Source: Pedobacter mucosus (GTDB lineage Bacteria; Bacteroidota; Bacteroidia; Sphingobacteriales; Sphingobacteriaceae). Taken from it: 64,000 bases of DNA. Positions 16,702 to 25,696 of the stretch are shown piece by piece; within the stretch, counting starts at the first letter, position 1, and the number at the start of each line of letters is the position of its first letter. Location: the NCBI RefSeq assembly GCF_022200785.1, contig NZ_CP087585.1, positions 1,612,001 to 1,676,000 on the forward strand, written 5' to 3'. The notes beneath the pieces were generated by a model. That model made no database searches and was not told the origin of the DNA. It saw nothing but the letters and a program-made list of their open reading frames with translations. The position numbers and the translations under genes are program-made.

Positions 16702-17709
16702 CTAACTAGTAACTAGAGGAACACTCATAAGCTGAATTTCTAAAATAACTTTATCAAGAATTTCTATTGTATCTAAACAATTCCCTATTTCATTGCTTTC
16801 ATTGGATAATGAGAGTTTTACTAAAATTGTTGAAAGTGAATCTAGTTTAATGACCAAATTCCTACTATTAAGAACTGATGAAAATTTATATTTTTCATCT
16901 TTAAGCATAACTGCAAAATCAGAAATTGTTTGTTTAAGAGATTCATTGTCATGAATTTTGTGATCTACATCATTTTGACACTTCTCTAGCTCATTTTTGA
17001 CATTTTGAAACAAGTTTTTAAAAAGCGTGAAGTCCCTTTTCCTAAGAATTTTGGTAATGGCGGTCGGACTTACGTTAAAGAGTCTATTTATTGCAATTTG
17101 AAACGAAAGGGTGGAAATTTTTGGATATACGTCTGCTGTCTTCTTAACCAATTCGTCAATATCTTCAGAAAGTTTCTCGACTTTTTCACTACTTTCTAAA
17201 GCTTTGTTAGTATTTAAAGTGAGCAAATCAATAACGCTTGCTGATGGCATTTCTTTTATTTTATCTCTTAAGTCATTAACGATAAGTACGTTGACTATCA
17301 AAGGAATAAAGATTCCAAATAAAGTCATAAAACCTATACCCAAGGCCATGTATAAGTTTAACCTATCGAAATCCTTATCCATTATTGATTCTGCTCGATT
17401 AGATTCTTTATATACCTGATCTGTTAATAAATCAATATGTGTATTAATTTTGTCGATTTCCTTAGAGTCAATCAACAATTGTTTACCATTTATTTTTTTT
17501 AAATCTAAATTGAAAGGTTTTGACTTTTTAGTCTGTAAAAAACTTTCAAAATTTTTCTTATTACTTTCTTTCACAAGCTCAATGTTATTATATAAACACC
17601 TCCACTGAATAAAAAATAAAATTGAAAAACAAATCGCGAAAACACTGATAGATACCATTATTGGTCTATTAGAGCGGATCTGGCTACTATTTGGTCGCTG
17701 TTTAGCCAT
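16702..17709 (-). CDS. Two-TM coiled-coil membrane protein of candidate defence operon
   Basis: Unrecognised 335-residue protein. A short basic N-terminus precedes TM1 (about residues 17-36, IMVSISVFAICFSILFFI), a region of about 80 residues rich in Lys, Asp and Ile, then TM2 (about 120-145, MALGIGFMTLFGIFIPLIV). The C-terminal about 190 residues are charged and probably coiled coil. The region between the two TM helices and the long tail lie on opposite sides of the membrane. It is the last gene of the nuclease / SMC-like / membrane operon, one base after the ATPase gene. A pore-forming or membrane-tethering effector role is an inference from this layout. Confidence 0.75.
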   Translation of the reverse strand: MAKQRPNSSQIRSNRPIMVSISVFAICFSILFFIQWRCLYNNIELVKESNKKNFESFLQTKKSKPFNLDLKKINGKQLLIDSKEIDKINTHIDLLTDQVYKESNRAESIMDKDFDRLNLYMALGIGFMTLFGIFIPLIVNVLIVNDLRDKIKEMPSASVIDLLTLNTNKALESSEKVEKLSEDIDELVKKTADVYPKISTLSFQIAINRLFNVSPTAITKILRKRDFTLFKNLFQNVKNELEKCQNDVDHKIHDNESLKQTISDFAVMLKDEKYKFSSVLNSRNLVIKLDSLSTILVKLSLSNESNEIGNCLDTIEILDKVILEIQLMSVPLVTS

Positions 17710-17710
17710 A

Positions 17711-20167
17711 TTAGTTAATGTTTATTTTATTAGGAATTCTATACAAAAGCTCCCATATTCTTGATCCATCGTTCAAAATAGACATATCTTTCACTTTATC
17801 ATCTGTGCTAAACATCCTTGAAATATATGTTTTGTCATTTAGGTTAAGTGTGTTCTCAATGCATAAATCTTCATTCATTACCTCTTTAAAATCATCCACA
17901 GCATCAATCGCGCTTCGAAATATTAAATCGTCATGAGTAAATAAGATAAATTGGAAGGGGAGCTCTGGGGTGTATTTATAAAATAACTTTATTATTTTTT
18001 GAAAGAAAGATGAGAAAGAATTTTTATTTACATAATCACTTGAAAAGAATAAGTCATCCATAACCAATGGTAGGTTGATATTATATTCTTTTCTAGTTGC
18101 TAAAGCAATGCTTAAGCTTATCATCAAGCAAAAGAGTTTATATCTAAATGTATTAAAATAGATATCTGGTGTGGTTACCTTTCCAGTTTCTAAATTTAAA
18201 ATACTTGCAATAATTAATTCTTTATGGTACTCAGTACCATCGATCATTATTAACTCTTTATCAATTTTTATCTGAAACTTAATTTTATGTTTTTCATCAA
18301 TGAAATCATTCATAATATCTTCTATAATATTTTTCATTGGAAGAAATGCTTTAGCAACTAGGCTATCTTTTTTCTCATTGAAAACTATATTAAATTGTTT
18401 GATTTGCGTTTTTACATTCTCAACATCTTCAACTAATCGTATTGCTTTTTCTAACTCCTTGCCTTGCTTTAAATATTGTTCTTGAAACATAGCTGTTGAA
18501 TCTTCCAATTCTTTTAAGTCAATTTCTGCATTAATAATCTGTTTTTCGATCGACAAAACCTCACTTGATCCTAACTTTTGAATCTCATTATTGATAGCCA
18601 ACTTCCTTAATTCACCAAGTTCTTTAATATCAGACAAATAGCTTGTGAAAGTTTTTAAGAAAAGATCAGAATTCTCATTTACCAGAGAAAATAGTTTTTC
18701 ATAATCCTCTTCTCGTGGAAACTGGACTCTGGATAGTGATTGAATGTAATCGTATAGCTGTTCATCCGCTGTGATTAGAGATAGGCGAACAAACAGTAAA
18801 TCTTCCTTTTTACTGATTAAATCTAACGATGGATACCTCGCAATTTCTATTCTTTCGGCAGATATCGAAGTAGTAGTTTCAACGAGTTTATTAATAAGTT
18901 TTGCAAGTTCACCTGATAAATTTCGGTAAGTGTTCTTAATATCTCTTTCAATTTCCTCAAATACATTCAATTTTTTTAATCGCTCATCAACATTTTCAGC
19001 AATAACGGAATGCTCAAAATTGGAGTTTAAACAAAAAGGACAGTCTGCAGAGTGCGTTAGTAATTCCAAACCACTCAAGAGAAATGTTTTTTCGGTTTCT
19101 AACTTTTCACTTCTCGTTCTTGATAGATAGGCACGAAATAATTCTTTGTAATCAGTAATAAGATCTTGTAAAACATCATTTTGATGATAGTCGGAAAAAT
19201 CTCTTTCCAATAGTTTAGTAAGAGCTTTTATGCTATCAAAATCTGATTTAGTCTGAATCACTTCCCCGTTCTTTAAATTAAATAAGTCTTCCGATTTTTT
19301 AAGTAAATCATCTTTCCTTGTCTGGATTATTTTAAAAGTTTGTGTTACTTCTGTTTGAAGTGAATTTTTCAAAGAAACTTCTTTACGACGATTATAGGTC
19401 GGAATTTGTTCAGAGATAGCTATAAAATCCAAATATTCTTTTAATCCTAGGGATTTTGCGACGATGTTATGAAATGAGTAATCAAAATTTTTATCTGTAA
19501 CATCATAGTTTATTCTTCCATTTTCGATTACGTCGTATTCGGTGATAAAATGTGCGATCGGATTAAATATCCTTAGATATTCACCTTTAAAAACAGGGTT
19601 ATCCAAGCTAAATATTCCTTCATTTGTTTCAACAATGCATTCTGGTGGATTTTCACTCGGAAAACGTTTTAAATATTCTTCAAAATCTAAATTATTTTCA
19701 TTTCTGCTACGAAGTTTTTTTTCACCTATCTCTTGCGCATAGACCATTTCTAAACCAGAAAAGATTGATGATTTCCCTGCACCGTTGTTTGCCAAGATTA
19801 AGGCATTCACCTGTTGATTGTTTTCATTAATCAAATCAATCCCGAATGTGATTCCATCAAGTTCTTCTTTGTCAGGAATGCCTCGTAAGTTAGAAATCTT
19901 TACATTTTTTAACCTAAAATCCTTACCATGATATTTTGATGTATCTATAAGTTCTTCATCTTTCGAGAAATCTTCAGATAAATCCTGAAAATTAAAATCT
20001 TGACCTTTGGATAATTGGTATAATGATAACAAACCTTCAAAAAAAAGCTCTCTAGTGCCAAAGTCTAACTTTGGGTAATAGTAGGCTATTACTTTAGCGA
20101 TTTGAGTTTGTTCTCTCTCATCAATAGCTATATCAATAAGTGCTTGTCTAAAATTAAAAGTTGTCAT
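17711..20167 (-). CDS. SMC/Rad50-like ATPase with zinc hook
   Basis: An 818-residue ABC-type ATPase. About 115 residues precede the head, an unusual N-terminal extension. Walker A is ANNGAGKSS at about 126-134. A zinc-hook CPFC lies at 376-379 between two coiled-coil arms. Near the C-terminus are Walker B with a double Asp (LPLVMDDLFFSSD) and the switch histidine (FILFTHDD). The usual LSGG signature is replaced by a divergent segment (FRYKLFCLMISLSIAL). Such proteins sense DNA ends or structures in defence systems such as Lamassu and RloC, but I cannot assign this one. It sits between a nuclease gene (43 bp upstream) and a membrane protein gene (1 bp downstream). Confidence 0.8.
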   Translation of the reverse strand: MTTFNFRQALIDIAIDEREQTQIAKVIAYYYPKLDFGTRELFFEGLLSLYQLSKGQDFNFQDLSEDFSKDEELIDTSKYHGKDFRLKNVKISNLRGIPDKEELDGITFGIDLINENNQQVNALILANNGAGKSSIFSGLEMVYAQEIGEKKLRSRNENNLDFEEYLKRFPSENPPECIVETNEGIFSLDNPVFKGEYLRIFNPIAHFITEYDVIENGRINYDVTDKNFDYSFHNIVAKSLGLKEYLDFIAISEQIPTYNRRKEVSLKNSLQTEVTQTFKIIQTRKDDLLKKSEDLFNLKNGEVIQTKSDFDSIKALTKLLERDFSDYHQNDVLQDLITDYKELFRAYLSRTRSEKLETEKTFLLSGLELLTHSADCPFCLNSNFEHSVIAENVDERLKKLNVFEEIERDIKNTYRNLSGELAKLINKLVETTTSISAERIEIARYPSLDLISKKEDLLFVRLSLITADEQLYDYIQSLSRVQFPREEDYEKLFSLVNENSDLFLKTFTSYLSDIKELGELRKLAINNEIQKLGSSEVLSIEKQIINAEIDLKELEDSTAMFQEQYLKQGKELEKAIRLVEDVENVKTQIKQFNIVFNEKKDSLVAKAFLPMKNIIEDIMNDFIDEKHKIKFQIKIDKELIMIDGTEYHKELIIASILNLETGKVTTPDIYFNTFRYKLFCLMISLSIALATRKEYNINLPLVMDDLFFSSDYVNKNSFSSFFQKIIKLFYKYTPELPFQFILFTHDDLIFRSAIDAVDDFKEVMNEDLCIENTLNLNDKTYISRMFSTDDKVKDMSILNDGSRIWELLYRIPNKININ

Positions 20168-20210
20168 AATAACATTATAATTGATGAAATTAGTTTTGAG
20201 CTAAATGAAG

Positions 20211-21458
20211 CTAATCAATTGGCGGAATATTATAAAGTTGAATCGCTAAATGCACTTCTCGATTTCTATCACCATTTAAATGAAATCTAAAATTGAACCA
20301 ATTTTCATCTGATTTATTTAAAAAAGTTAAGTAGTTTGGATGTGTTGATGTAGTCGACTCAATTTTATCAAGTATTGATGAGAAATCTTTCTCCCTCACG
20401 AAAATGACAATAGACGCCTTATTGTCTCGCCATGTAAGATATCTTAACAGTTGATCAATTGTCGCTAAATATCCTTTGGAGCCACTCCAAAACTTGCATT
20501 CAGCAATAAAAACCACAGAACTATTGTATCTTAGTTGAATATCTGTCTTTCCTGTCTTGTTAAATGTTTCTCCGCTCGCTGAACCGTTTTCAAAATTAGG
20601 ATCTAAAACCATTAGAATATGGTCTCGCAAATCTTCCTCACCCTTATTTTTGTAGACGCTTGGCATCCTTTCGAAATTTTTTCCTACATCGTTAATGATC
20701 TTTAATATTTTTTTATAATTATCATTATCAAGCGTAGGCTCTGGTGCAAAGCCCTTGTCATGGACCACTGGCTTAACCAAAATTTGTTCTCTTAGTAAAG
20801 GTTTAGGAACAGAAAATGTCTCGGGGGCGTTTGCTTTTTTTCTTAATGGGACTCCCAATGAGGAAAGCAAGCTATTCTTGTTTAGAAGTTTTTCTTTTCG
20901 TTGATCGAATACTGAAAGTATATAGTTTTTTAAATTCGAATTAAAGTTGCCAAGTTCGATTCTTAGGTAATTGTAATTAGAGTGGATACCGTTAAGTTCC
21001 GACTGATAGTTTCGATTGATTTCTTCAGCATTATTTGAAAAGTTGATAAACTCAGCAACAATTGCATCGCCTTTTATTTCAAAGTCACCACCACCACCAA
21101 TTGAGAATGTGTTTGCTGGACCATAAGCTAAAAGGTTTATGTCTCCTGAACATGGAATGAAATATTGAATGACCTCTTTTTTGTATTTCTTCCCCTCAAA
21201 AACATTGAAACTTTGTGGGAAATATTCAGCAGGTATATCGGTTTCGTAACTATCTGCGCTGACTTGGTCGAAATGGATTTCTGGAATTTGCAATTTATAT
21301 TTGCTTTCTATATGATCAGCATATTCATTTTCATTAGCATTAAGAATATAATTTTCCGTTTCACCTTCAATTAGTGATTTGATTGAATCGAAGGCTTTTT
21401 CAAAAATTTCTGATATACGTCCTTTTGAAAATATTCTACCGTATGTTCTTCCGTTCAT
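20211..21458 (-). CDS. PD-(D/E)XK nuclease-domain protein of candidate defence operon
   Basis: A 415-residue protein with a C-terminal restriction-endonuclease-like core. The motif reads E275 (GEEDLRDH), D306 (KTGKTDIQL), then E320-x-K322 (FIAECKFW), followed by an alpha helix with QLLRYLTW. The first about 240 residues form an unrecognised domain with a glycine-rich FSIGGGGDFEIKGDA stretch. It is the promoter-proximal gene of the operon. Inferred role: the DNA-cutting effector governed by the SMC-like ATPase. Proteins of this shape also occur alone, so the functional link needs checking by gene co-occurrence. Confidence 0.75.
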   Translation of the reverse strand: MNGRTYGRIFSKGRISEIFEKAFDSIKSLIEGETENYILNANENEYADHIESKYKLQIPEIHFDQVSADSYETDIPAEYFPQSFNVFEGKKYKKEVIQYFIPCSGDINLLAYGPANTFSIGGGGDFEIKGDAIVAEFINFSNNAEEINRNYQSELNGIHSNYNYLRIELGNFNSNLKNYILSVFDQRKEKLLNKNSLLSSLGVPLRKKANAPETFSVPKPLLREQILVKPVVHDKGFAPEPTLDNDNYKKILKIINDVGKNFERMPSVYKNKGEEDLRDHILMVLDPNFENGSASGETFNKTGKTDIQLRYNSSVVFIAECKFWSGSKGYLATIDQLLRYLTWRDNKASIVIFVREKDFSSILDKIESTTSTHPNYLTFLNKSDENWFNFRFHLNGDRNREVHLAIQLYNIPPID

Positions 21459-22099: not shown

Positions 22100-22594
22100 A
22101 TGAATAAAGCAATTTTTCTAGATCGTGACGGAGTATTGAATCATGAGATAAATGATTATATCTGTAGGGTTGAAGATTTCGAAATTTTGGAATACCAGAT
22201 TCCAGTGTTAAAAAAGTTATTTGATGAAGGATATTTGCTTATTGTAATTACAAATCAAGGGGGAATTGCCTTAAAAAGATATACGGAAGAACAATTGACA
22301 ACAATGCACCAATCATTGCAGGATTCCTTTAAAGAACAAGGCGCAGAAATTGCTCATTTTTATTATTGTCCACATCATCCTACAGTGGGTGGCGAATGTG
22401 CATGCAGAAAACCAGCTTCAGGAATGCTTTTAGATGCGATTGAGAAGTTTGATATTGATCCGGCATTATCTATTATGATTGGGGATAAACTTAGGGATGT
22501 TGAGGCTGCGAATGGGGCAGGAGTAAAGGGGATTTTAATTGAGCCTGATGAAGAGATTCGTTATGAAAAGATTAAGGTAGCTTTAATAGCGTAA
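22100..22594 (+). CDS. gmhB: D-glycero-D-manno-heptose 1,7-bisphosphate 7-phosphatase (HAD-IIIA)
   Basis: Removes the 7-phosphate of heptose bisphosphate in the synthesis of the ADP-heptose used for lipopolysaccharide. The 164-residue protein has the HAD nucleophile motif FLDRDGVLN, the second motif Thr in VITNQGG, the Lys in CACRKPASGM and the last motif IMIGDKLRD. The GmhB zinc loop is present (YYCPHHPTVGGECAC). It is slightly shorter than E. coli GmhB (about 190). No other heptose gene is adjacent. A related histidinol-phosphatase role is less likely given the zinc loop. Confidence 0.85.
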   Translation: MNKAIFLDRDGVLNHEINDYICRVEDFEILEYQIPVLKKLFDEGYLLIVITNQGGIALKRYTEEQLTTMHQSLQDSFKEQGAEIAHFYYCPHHPTVGGECACRKPASGMLLDAIEKFDIDPALSIMIGDKLRDVEAANGAGVKGILIEPDEEIRYEKIKVALIA

Positions 22595-22620: not shown

Positions 22621-23322
22621 GTTAATACTTTGTGGAGATTGCCTTGCTTTTATCTTGCCTCGGCTGGCCGCCGAAGGGCTTTTACTTTTGGCTTGGCCCA
22701 AAAGTAACAAAAGTTCAAGGCTTCCCGAAGGCTCGGGACGGATGGATCTGATAGACAAATAGGATCGTCCAAACTTTAAGAGCAACAGTGGTCTAGGTTT
22801 GATGAAAAATCAAACTTGCCACTGTTTTGATAATTAGGTTAGGGAAAGTTAGTGCACAAGTTTAAACGTCCTATTCATCTATCACCTCCTAGGCCGGAAA
22901 GCAGGGTGGCTGTGCGATCGTGAAAACCTTACGTCAAAAGGATATTCTGTTAAGAACTGTATTTCTTTAAACAGCAGGGTTTGAACCACCAACCCAATGC
23001 CAATGAAAAACAAACCCATTTTTCCCATCAAACACTGATAGGACGCCTGCTTTTCCTGAGCAGCGGAAAAAAAATCTGGAAGGCTGGGATTGAGCGTTGG
23101 CAGAAGGCCTCGATTTTATTAGTTTCGATCCTTCAATCGAAACCGTAGCTTGAGCTGCCTTCCAGATTTTTGTGTAATGGATGGTGCGCCAAGCTACCTA
23201 GTGAAAAGCGAAGGGCTTTGCTAACTTTGGCCTTCAAAGTTTGATGCCTGCCGGCATAGAGGCATAGAAACAAATTATTTGATAGTGTATGGTTTTGGCC
23301 CCCTCATTCCGTGCAGAAGGAA
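22621..23322. repeat. Structured ~700-bp intergenic repeat, copy 1
   Basis: First complete unit (702 bp). It contains a hairpin TTACTTTTGG/CCAAAAGTAA (22682-22707), CCCGA/TCGGG (22724-22737), and a long-range stem pairing 22750-22764 with 22869-22883 (two mismatches). It also holds an inner hairpin around 22790-22830, a perfect 15-bp stem pairing 23070-23084 with 23157-23171, and AACTTTG/CAAAGTT near 23223-23241. It has no coding potential that holds across copies. Confidence 0.8.
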
Positions 23323-24040
23323 GTTAATGCTTTGTGGAGGTTGCTTTGCTTTTGTCTTGCCTCGGCTGGCCGCCGAAGGGCTTTTACTTTTTTCAGTTTG
23401 TTTATATTTGTATAGGTCTTCAAGCTTTCGCTATGCTCAGGTTGGCTTGGCCCAAAAGTAACAAAAGTCCAAGGCTTCCCGAAGGCTCGGGACGGATGGA
23501 TCTGATAGACAAATAGGATCGTCTAAACTTTAATGGCAACAGTGGACTAGGTTTGATGAAAAATCAAACTTGCCACTGTTTTGGTAATTAGGTTAGGGAA
23601 AATTAGTTCACAAGTTTAAACGTCCTATTTGTCTATCAGCTCCTAGGCCGGAAAGCAGGGTGGCCGTGCGATCGTGAAAACCTTACGTCAAAAGGATATT
23701 CTGTTAAGAACTGTATTTCTTTAAACAGCAGGGTTTGAATCGCTAACCCAATGCCAATGAAAAACAAACTAAAGTATCACACCTTGCTCTGATAGGACGC
23801 AGGCTTTTCCTGAGCAGCGGGAAAAAAATCTGGAAGGCTGGGATTGAGCGTGGCAGAAGGCCTAGATTTTATTTCTTTCAATCCTTCAATCGAAACCGTA
23901 GCCTGAGCTGCCTTCCAGATTTTTGTGTAATGAATGGTGCGGGAGAGCTGCCTAGTGAAAAGCGAAGGGCTTTGCTAACTTTGGCCTTCAAAGTTTGATG
24001 CCCGCCGGCATAGAGGTATAGAAACAAATTAATAAAGAGT
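23323..24040. repeat. Structured ~700-bp intergenic repeat, copy 2
   Basis: Second unit. The outer stem is perfect here: TGATAGACAAATAGGA at 23503-23518 pairs with 23623-23638. The 15-bp stem pairs 23824-23838 with 23910-23924. A 52-bp insertion at 23392-23443 splits the TTACTTTTGG hairpin. The 3' end diverges from copy 1 after about 24030. Confidence 0.8.
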
Positions 24041-24104
24041 GATAAGTTTACTTTTGTGGTTAAAAGACAACGTTCTATAAACAGAAATTAATAGTCTTTT
24101 CTTT

Positions 24105-24768
24105 TTTCCTCACCGCCGGAACGGCTCTTACCTTTTTCTTGATAATAAAGAACCAAACAATCAAGGCTTCCCGAAGGCTCGGGACGGATGGATCTGATAG
24201 ACAAATAGGATCGTCCAAACTTTAATGGCAACAGTGGACTAGGTTTGATGAAGAATCAAACTTGCCACTGTTTCGGTAATTAGGTTAGGGAAAGTTTGTG
24301 CACAAGTTTAAACGTCCTATTCATCTATCACCTCCTAGGCCGGAAAGCAGGGTGGCTGTGCGATCGTTTAAACAATACCTTTAATGTGATATTTATTTAA
24401 AAAAAAGATTTCTTTAAACAGCAGGGTTAGAACCAACAACCTAATGCCAATGAAAAACATAACCTTGTTCTACTCCTTGCCCTGATAGGACGCCTGCTTT
24501 TCCTAAGCAGCGGGAAAAAAATCTGGAAGGTTGGGTTTGAGGGTGGCTGAAGGCCTAGATATATTTGTTTCGATCCTTTATCGAAACCGTAGCCTGAGCG
24601 GCCTTCCAGATTTTTGTGTAATGCATGGTGAGGCAGAGCTGCCTAGTGAAAAGCGAAGGGCTTTGCTAACTTTGGCCTTCAAAGTTTGATGCCCGCCGGC
24701 ATAGAGGCGAAGAAAAAAATTATTTGATAGTCTATGGTTTTGGCTCCCCTCATTCCGTGCAGAAGGAA
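24105..24768. repeat. Structured ~700-bp intergenic repeat, copy 3
   Basis: Third unit. The 5' end is degenerate (CACCGCCGGAACGGCTCTTA in place of the usual start), but from about 24161 it matches the others closely. The 15-bp stem is kept at 24517-24531 with 24601-24615, where the terminal C-G pair has become T-G and can still pair. Confidence 0.78.
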
Positions 24769-24895
24769 TTTAATGCTTTGTGGAGGTTGCTTTGCTTTTG
24801 TCTTGCCTCGGCTGGCCGCCGAAGGGCTTTTACTTTTTGCTTGGCCCAAAAGTAACAAAAGTCCAAGGCTTCCCGAAGGCTCGGGACAGATGGGC
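24769..24895. repeat. Structured intergenic repeat, copy 4 (5' end only)
   Basis: Matches the first about 125 bases of copies 1 and 2 up to the CCCGAAGGCTCGGG hairpin, then ends abruptly. It suggests the array grew by unequal recombination. Confidence 0.75.
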
Positions 24896-25027: not shown

Positions 25028-25696
25028 TTAACCTGTAATTTTAGCTGAAGCCTTAGCATGATCTGCTAAGAAAGTAGCCAAACCACTATCTGTTAAGGGG
25101 TGTTTTAGTAAACCTGCAATCGCAACAAGTGGCGCTGTAATCACATCAGCACCTAATTTAGCGCAATTTACAATGTGCAATGGTCCGCGGATGGATGCAG
25201 CTAAAATTTGAGTTTCGTAACCGTAGTTATCAAAAATTGTTCTGATATCTTCGATCAACGTCAAGCCATCGCTAGAAATATCATCTAAGCGACCTAAAAA
25301 TGGAGAAACATAAGTTGCTCCAGCTTTTGCAGCTAACAAAGCCTGTCCGGCAGAGAAAATTAAAGTACAATTGGTTTTGATTCCTTTTGAAGAGAAATAC
25401 TTAATGGCTTTAACACCATCTTTAATCATCGGTACTTTAACTACAATTTTAGGATTTAATGCCGCTAATGCTTCACCTTCTTTAACGATTTCGTCAAATG
25501 TTGTTGCAATAACTTCTGCACTAACATTATCATCAACGATATCACAAATAGCTTTGTAGTGATTAATTACATTTTCTTCGCCAGTAATGCCTTCTTTAGC
25601 CATTAAGCTTGGGTTGGTGGTTACGCCATCCAAAATTCCCATGTCTTGTGCTTCTCTTATTTGATCAAGATTAGCTGTGTCTATAAAAAATTTCAT
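25028..25696 (-). CDS. fsa: Transaldolase / fructose-6-phosphate aldolase family protein
   Basis: A small (222-residue) member of the transaldolase family, subfamily of FSA/TalC, that moves or splits a dihydroxyacetone unit via a Schiff base. The N-terminal [16 protein letters not shown] is characteristic, as are [11 protein letters not shown] and the active lysine in [13 protein letters not shown]. The C-terminal [15 protein letters not shown] matches short transaldolases. The length separates it from the long TalB type. Whether transaldolase or fructose-6-phosphate aldolase activity dominates cannot be read from sequence. It is transcribed alone, next to the SRP RNA gene. Confidence 0.88.

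Follow-up and report, generated by a model that had tools for sequence, protein, structure and literature searches.

A Pedobacter-limited family of structured tandem repeats, probably a dispersed, non-autonomous element that recombination has multiplied

A tandem array of long non-coding repeats in the genome of Pedobacter mucosus raises the question of whether its copies are genes for a large structured RNA or a repeat element spread by recombination, the two readings offered in a preliminary description of this DNA. Positions refer to the window, the whole stretch of 64,000 nucleotides that was analyzed. The array (22621-24895, + strand) sits between a HAD-phosphatase gene (22100-22594, + strand) and a convergent transaldolase gene (25028-25696, - strand), both assigned with Pfam. 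The proposed arrangement of three long copies and one partial copy was borne out: the repeat positions were recovered, all copies run head to tail, and the starts of long copies 1-3 are spaced 754 and 692 bp. Over a 300-bp part, the other long copies are 96% and 82% identical to copy 1, and the array has a G+C content of 43.6%, as compared to 34.7% for the window. In the window's list of open reading frames (ORFs), none spans all copies; copies 2 and 4 carry short ORFs (60 and 64 aa, respectively) that have ∼30 residues in common and are missing from copies 1 and 3, in agreement with the earlier statement that no frame is conserved. As a separate observation at this locus, a three-gene operon on the - strand (16702-21458), adjoining tRNA-Lys and 1.2 kb from the array, is a candidate defence island. 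Its 415-aa gene matches the PADLOC candidate defence family PDC-S54 (E 3.7e-145), and its 818-aa gene is without a Pfam match.

Each long copy contains a long imperfect hairpin of 162-166 nt, the A-type core, located at 22744-22907 in copy 1, 23498-23661 in copy 2, and 24190-24353 in copy 3 (all + strand). A covariance model of this core, R1, comprises 165 positions and 40 pairs and scores the three at 135.7, 139.1, and 138.2 bits, respectively. The first of two long stems reported to recur among the copies (23503-23518 with 23623-23638) lies within the core of copy 2, where 16 of 16 positions pair; 14 of 16 pair in copies 1 and 3. The second (23824-23838 with 23910-23924) pairs at 15 of 15 positions in copy 2 and belongs to a further module, the C hairpin, placed by alignment A3 at 23038-23262, 23792-24016, and 24485-24707 on the + strand of copies 1, 2, and 3. 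The letters of copy 3 do show the C-G to T-G change described for this 15-bp stem, and both long stems are also found outside the window.

Copy 1 (22651-22907) folds 5.4 SD better than shuffled sequences, both as RNA and as DNA, and its complement 5.8 SD better, but covariation in relatives is stronger proof of the fold than this shuffle test. In a structure-blind alignment of 31 sequences, the hand-drawn core pairs in 92.8% of cells, compared to 40-53% with slid partners, and double-sided changes occur at 19 of 40 pairs, compared to 4-10; the structure was drawn on the same 31 sequences on which it was scored, which favors it. A model-fitted alignment of 150 matches (142 distinct), which includes B cores as well as A cores and leans towards structure by construction, has double changes at 35 of 40 pairs as opposed to 12-19 with slid partners. 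B is a second core type of the same outline with other letters, scoring 40-70 bits with R1, and shows double changes at 5 of 42 pairs in its own unfitted alignment of 13 sequences. Pairing of the C hairpin, read by eye, is likewise kept in two relatives with other letters. The A core is kept by compensatory changes in relatives, and the thought that homologues might lack covariation is itself refuted by these double changes on paired sides. Several unpaired core bases are also nearly fixed across relatives (93-100% for six of these), as expected for a recognized imperfect hairpin.

Upstream of the core lies a 5′ module consisting of a small hairpin followed by a pseudoknot-like arrangement, in which stem S1 carries a CTTGNN loop that pairs with a downstream NNCAAG. 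It occupies 22651-22721 in copy 1 (loop CTTGGC, downstream TTCAAG, leaving the second stem mismatched), 23353-23475 in copy 2 (where an insertion separates the small hairpin from the CTTGGC loop), and 24096-24166 in copy 3 (loop CTTGAT, downstream ATCAAG), always on the + strand. Partial copy 4, at about 24739-24895 on the same strand, has the leader and 5′ module only (repeat families D4 and D5). S1 has many arm types and is Watson-Crick in 463 of 477 cells from 53 distinct oriented cases, its deviations including four A-C and no G-U. Across the 53 cases, loop and partner change in lockstep (CTTGAT/ATCAAG in 28, CTTGGC with CCAAG in 17, CTTGAA/TTCAAG in three, and two singletons); only three are mismatched, and one of these has the same letters as copy 1 of the window. 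The A-rich third loop measures 8 nt in 46 of the 53. We take this geometry, with a 9-bp S1, almost no first loop, a short second stem, and an A-rich third loop, to be one that suits a + strand RNA and does not suit a - strand RNA. Together with the covariation of the core, the lockstep stems strongly support the earlier claim that the stems are conserved.

Within this genome, a single contig of 4.93 Mb, blastn finds 33 matches to copy 2. The covariance-model search of Pedobacter genomes that had been suggested as a check gave at least 15 R1 matches in this genome and matches in at least 63 of 145 Pedobacter genomes. A class-wide sample of 395 genomes (196 genera) has matches in at least four, all Pedobacter, with no R1 match outside the genus among the scored candidates. 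These counts are lower bounds, as at most 19 candidates per genome were scored in the genus and at most seven in the class sample, under strict filters. An exact pattern of the core 3′ end is found in 23 stretches of the species-genome collection, and 23 of 23 are Pedobacter. The family is thus Pedobacter-specific and present in part of the genus. Plasmid and phage collections gave no blastn match to the unit, viral contigs gave no exact match to one 26-base pattern (a narrow test), and the literature searched holds no description of such a repeat. In one R1-negative genome (G009, stretch L079), this 5′ module precedes yet another, third type of core, indicating that the family is wider than R1 shows.

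Ten further places read in this genome illustrate how the modules are combined, with the C hairpin lacking an A core at some, the 5′ module and core lacking C at others, and cores and C hairpin on opposite strands at one. The other arrays of this genome, like that of the window, mostly lie between ordinary genes. Units of the family are mostly 150-250 bp apart, without genes between. The fetched stretches contain 81 arrays, of which 47 are flanked by tandem, 26 by convergent, and eight by divergent genes; this set leaves out the window array, may count overlapping hits, has some doubtful short ORFs among the neighbors, and is not independent, since it includes one hotspot in several species. 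Within multi-unit arrays all units point one way (38 of 38); across the 81 arrays they are not consistently co-oriented with neighboring genes. In arrays on the - strand of one relative stretch (L078), CGTC-tagged and other short REP-like palindromes were seen between units.

The second reading in the preliminary description, a repeat spread by recombination, is well supported by the dispersed intergenic arrays and by copy number at one orthologous site, the porP-nhaA interval, which holds one to seven cores depending on the species. A hybrid of two core types, identified by eye in L232 and with its pairing broken, adds to this, as does the HAD-transaldolase site itself. For that site, 29 relatives were fetched (of 145 genomes with a HAD match); 28 have no match in the 1.5 kb read and one (L175) has only a 60-nt match to the 5′ module, the transaldolase gene being inside the stretch in 24 of the 29 and the gap being only partly covered in five. 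The array was therefore gained in this lineage or lost in others. Several relatives (L185, L186, L187, and L192) carry at the same site a different hairpin-rich repeat containing GGAAAGCAGGRC, which resembles the GGAWAGCAGGGT tail of the unit. No target-site duplication could be defined, the flanks at array-less sites being too diverged to align by eye, and no element ends could be defined from the dispersed copies in G116 among the matches listed, which are too mosaic; exact duplications of 97-99 bp in G116 may be assembly joins. Stretches read around the six Y1-transposase genes of this genome hold no array match, and C-hairpin sites lie some kb from two of the six. A known transposon end, another outcome foreseen at the outset, was not found: there is no match to known mobile elements on plasmids or phages and no transposase linkage in the stretches read of this genome. 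In G149, an IS110-family transposase gene (L232:17888-18910, - strand) stands between two units. Some matches stem from vertical descent at one hotspot, so not all of them show mobility. Taken together, this is a real, structured, Pedobacter-limited repeat family. It most likely represents a dispersed element that is non-autonomous and owes its multiplication to recombination.

Whether the folded molecule is RNA or DNA was approached through the deviations from Watson-Crick pairing. The A core has 50 A-C and 45 G-U among 3,505 cells (89 distinct rows of the 96 best matches), and 40 weaker rows, mostly B, have 42 A-C and 49 G-U. In cluster consensus sequences at 85%, the A core shows 12 A-C and six G-U, and the B core five and ten. 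The SRP RNA of the genus, used as a control, has 35 G-U and no A-C in 18 distinct sequences (from 31 rows), and the A core differs from it with a Fisher p of 1.3e-9, calculated on cells that are not independent. That A-C is as frequent as G-U speaks for a DNA-level palindrome in the A core. Because the A core pairs had been chosen for Watson-Crick matches, the test was repeated per strand with RNAalifold, which gave G-U counts on the + and - strands of 10 and 40 for the A core, 86 and 21 for the B core, 63 and 54 for the C hairpin, and 58 and 20 for SRP RNA; the + strand of the B core has 86 G-U versus nine A-C. Strand preference thus differs among modules, with the A core favoring -, the B core +, and the C hairpin neither. 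At the gathering cut-offs of Rfam 15, the window gives only tRNA-Lys and a small SRP RNA near the array, and the array itself is without a match; at E up to 10 it has nine matches, all below gathering scores. On balance we lean towards DNA as the working molecule.

The chief alternative treats every unit as a gene for a large, structured non-coding RNA, with the 5′ pseudoknot and core as its domains and the arrays as multi-copy RNA genes. Covariation, near-fixed loop and bulge bases, pseudoknot stems that change in lockstep around a third loop of fixed length, and the + strand G-U excess of the B cores would all suit such a gene. The A core does not, having as many A-C as G-U deviations and four times the G-U on the - strand, nor does S1, which has no G-U in 477 cells. 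Units would also have to serve as RNA genes while inconsistently oriented to their neighbors and, in the hybrid, with pairing broken; 82 of the 145 genus genomes are without an R1 match among the scored candidates, no Rfam family corresponds, and a single strict Bacteroidetes-type promoter motif occurs in the array, in copy 3. The RNA reading of the preliminary description is not established: Rfam gives no match, wobble pairs in the A core do not follow the pattern of an RNA, and strand preference is inconsistent. It is the pseudoknot geometry that points to RNA, and we regard an RNA gene as rather unlikely.

We instead give about an even chance to the explanation that the window array is one site of a Pedobacter non-coding, non-autonomous dispersed repeat amplified by recombination, whose working form is a folded single strand, DNA being likelier than RNA. 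The unit is composed of a small 5′ hairpin, a pseudoknot-like stem pair, and a long imperfect hairpin core with several alternative sequences, joined in this lineage by the C hairpin. It would travel as a passenger, relying for its copying on trans-acting enzymes that may recognize a single folded strand, probably DNA that becomes single-stranded during replication or recombination. Having settled next to the end of a gene, a unit could then be amplified and rearranged head to tail as its copies recombine. Against this explanation, no transposase or integrase is tied to the units, the stretches read around the six Y1-transposase genes of this genome being free of array matches, the pseudoknot geometry with its A-rich third loop and the B core G-U excess fit + strand RNA, and lower-stem columns that are unpaired have a mean conservation of 0.81, no higher than the 0.84 of paired columns.

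An explanation with no recognition or function at all holds that the units are passive palindromes: template switching during replication would keep their inverted repeats complementary, and ordinary recombination would spread them. It would account for arms in the A core and S1 that match by Watson-Crick pairs with no bias toward wobble, and for the perfect 16-bp arm of copy 2 where copies 1 and 3 carry two mismatches. We consider it improbable because several mismatched or bulged bases are near-fixed across species; lockstep change in overlapping pseudoknot-like stems and alternative cores of the same outline also stand against it.

A further lead comes from the interval that separates an efflux lipoprotein gene from nhaA, a hotspot that was read in 11 genomes (this one, G004, G008, G019, G026, G072, G119, G136, G148, G149, and G166; in G149 only a neighboring efflux pump gene was seen). 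Nine of the 11 have an extra-gene block, whose content differs between species. Units lie directly on both sides of the block in six of these nine genomes, and in two nhaA separates block from units on one side; this genome has units on one side only, beyond nhaA. At its hotspot (L274, C1:2056000-2075000), type I restriction genes accompany the gene of a 248-aa protein, and pieces of the array are present toward nhaA. Fourteen defence-looking proteins were chosen by eye for testing, and these included type I restriction subunits (G000, G026, G136, and G148), DndC and DndD/PbeC (G019), ThsB and AbiH (G026), RhuM (G136), an AAA protein (G090), and, beside units elsewhere, DrmMII (G140) and Drt2 (G003). 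As a lead, then, units border a defence-gene hotspot in relatives.

Two proteins drew attention here. Homologues of the 248-aa protein, which has no Pfam match, occur in 36 of 145 genus genomes and three times in this one (L241:13727-14473, L274:12067-12813, and L275:6639-7385), often adjoining simple repeats and defence genes. R1 matches are found in at least 31 of the 36 genomes with this protein versus at least 32 of the 109 without it (p 2.5e-9, uncorrected for kinship), a co-occurrence we offer as a lead. A 434-aa protein (L227:1605-2909 and homologues) lies beside hotspot units and was rejected as the acting enzyme: it is present in 51 of 145 genus genomes, absent from this one, and has no Pfam or PADLOC match.

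It is conceivable, though we think it a long shot, that an undescribed, strand-specific Pedobacter system, RNA-guided or based on single-stranded DNA, has its site at the unit; it would recognize the pseudoknotted hairpin, build arrays beside genes, and serve as the exchange platform of the defence-island hotspot. Recombination sites resembling integron attC hairpins, through which genomes swap blocks of defence genes at the efflux lipoprotein-nhaA hotspot, would explain why blocks that vary between species and hold defence genes are directly flanked on both sides in six of nine genomes. This is very unlikely given the one-sided units of this genome, arrays that here mostly lie between ordinary genes, units that mostly adjoin each other with no gene between, and the lack of an integrase linked to units in the stretches read. 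A terminator or other 3′ element of the upstream gene was rejected, as units are not consistently co-oriented with their neighbors.

The covariance model allows copies to be counted, dated, and oriented, which makes the choice of RNA or DNA, the mover, and the exchange of defence genes testable. If transcribed, the units would form a sizeable undescribed RNA family; if they are sites in single-stranded DNA, they would be a new recombination substrate. Among known elements, the Pedo-repair RNA motif (RF01715) is listed as a candidate structured element for Pedobacter in PMC2864571. It shares with the unit a structured nature and a Pedobacter host, but the array is without a match to any Rfam family. 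OLE, GOLLD, and HEARO are large ornate bacterial RNAs of several hundred nucleotides, non-coding and with pseudoknots; the unit is similar in size, pseudoknot, and lack of coding, but has no Rfam match and, in the A core, no wobble evidence for RNA. MITEs and the intergenic mosaic repeats of the Neisseria type are short, non-coding, tandem, and mosaic, and are supposedly moved in trans. The unit is alike as a tandem mosaic non-coding repeat; no terminal inverted repeats or target duplications could be delimited for it. Integron attC sites keep structure more than sequence, have fixed unpaired bases, and form arrays, all of which the unit shares; it is larger, most units have no cassette genes between them, and no integrase is linked to it in the stretches read. 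REP, BIME, and REPIN elements with their RAYT transposases offer another parallel, being, like the unit, non-coding imperfect palindromes that are intergenic, clustered, and thought to be moved in trans as single-stranded DNA. REPs measure 20-40 bp according to PMC3733652. Unlike them, the unit spans at least 250 nt, combines a pseudoknot with cores that can be exchanged, and is absent from the stretches read around this genome's six Y1-transposase genes. A REP is recognized as a 20-40 bp palindrome with a GTAG or CGTC tag, which the 162-166 nt core is not, and palindromes with a CGTC tag are seen in the arrays of relatives solely as pieces apart from the units. Palindromic repeats scattered through genomes are nothing unusual, but this one, limited to a genus and at least 250 nt long, differs from the short REPs in its covarying pseudoknot, its exchangeable cores, and its growth in tandem.
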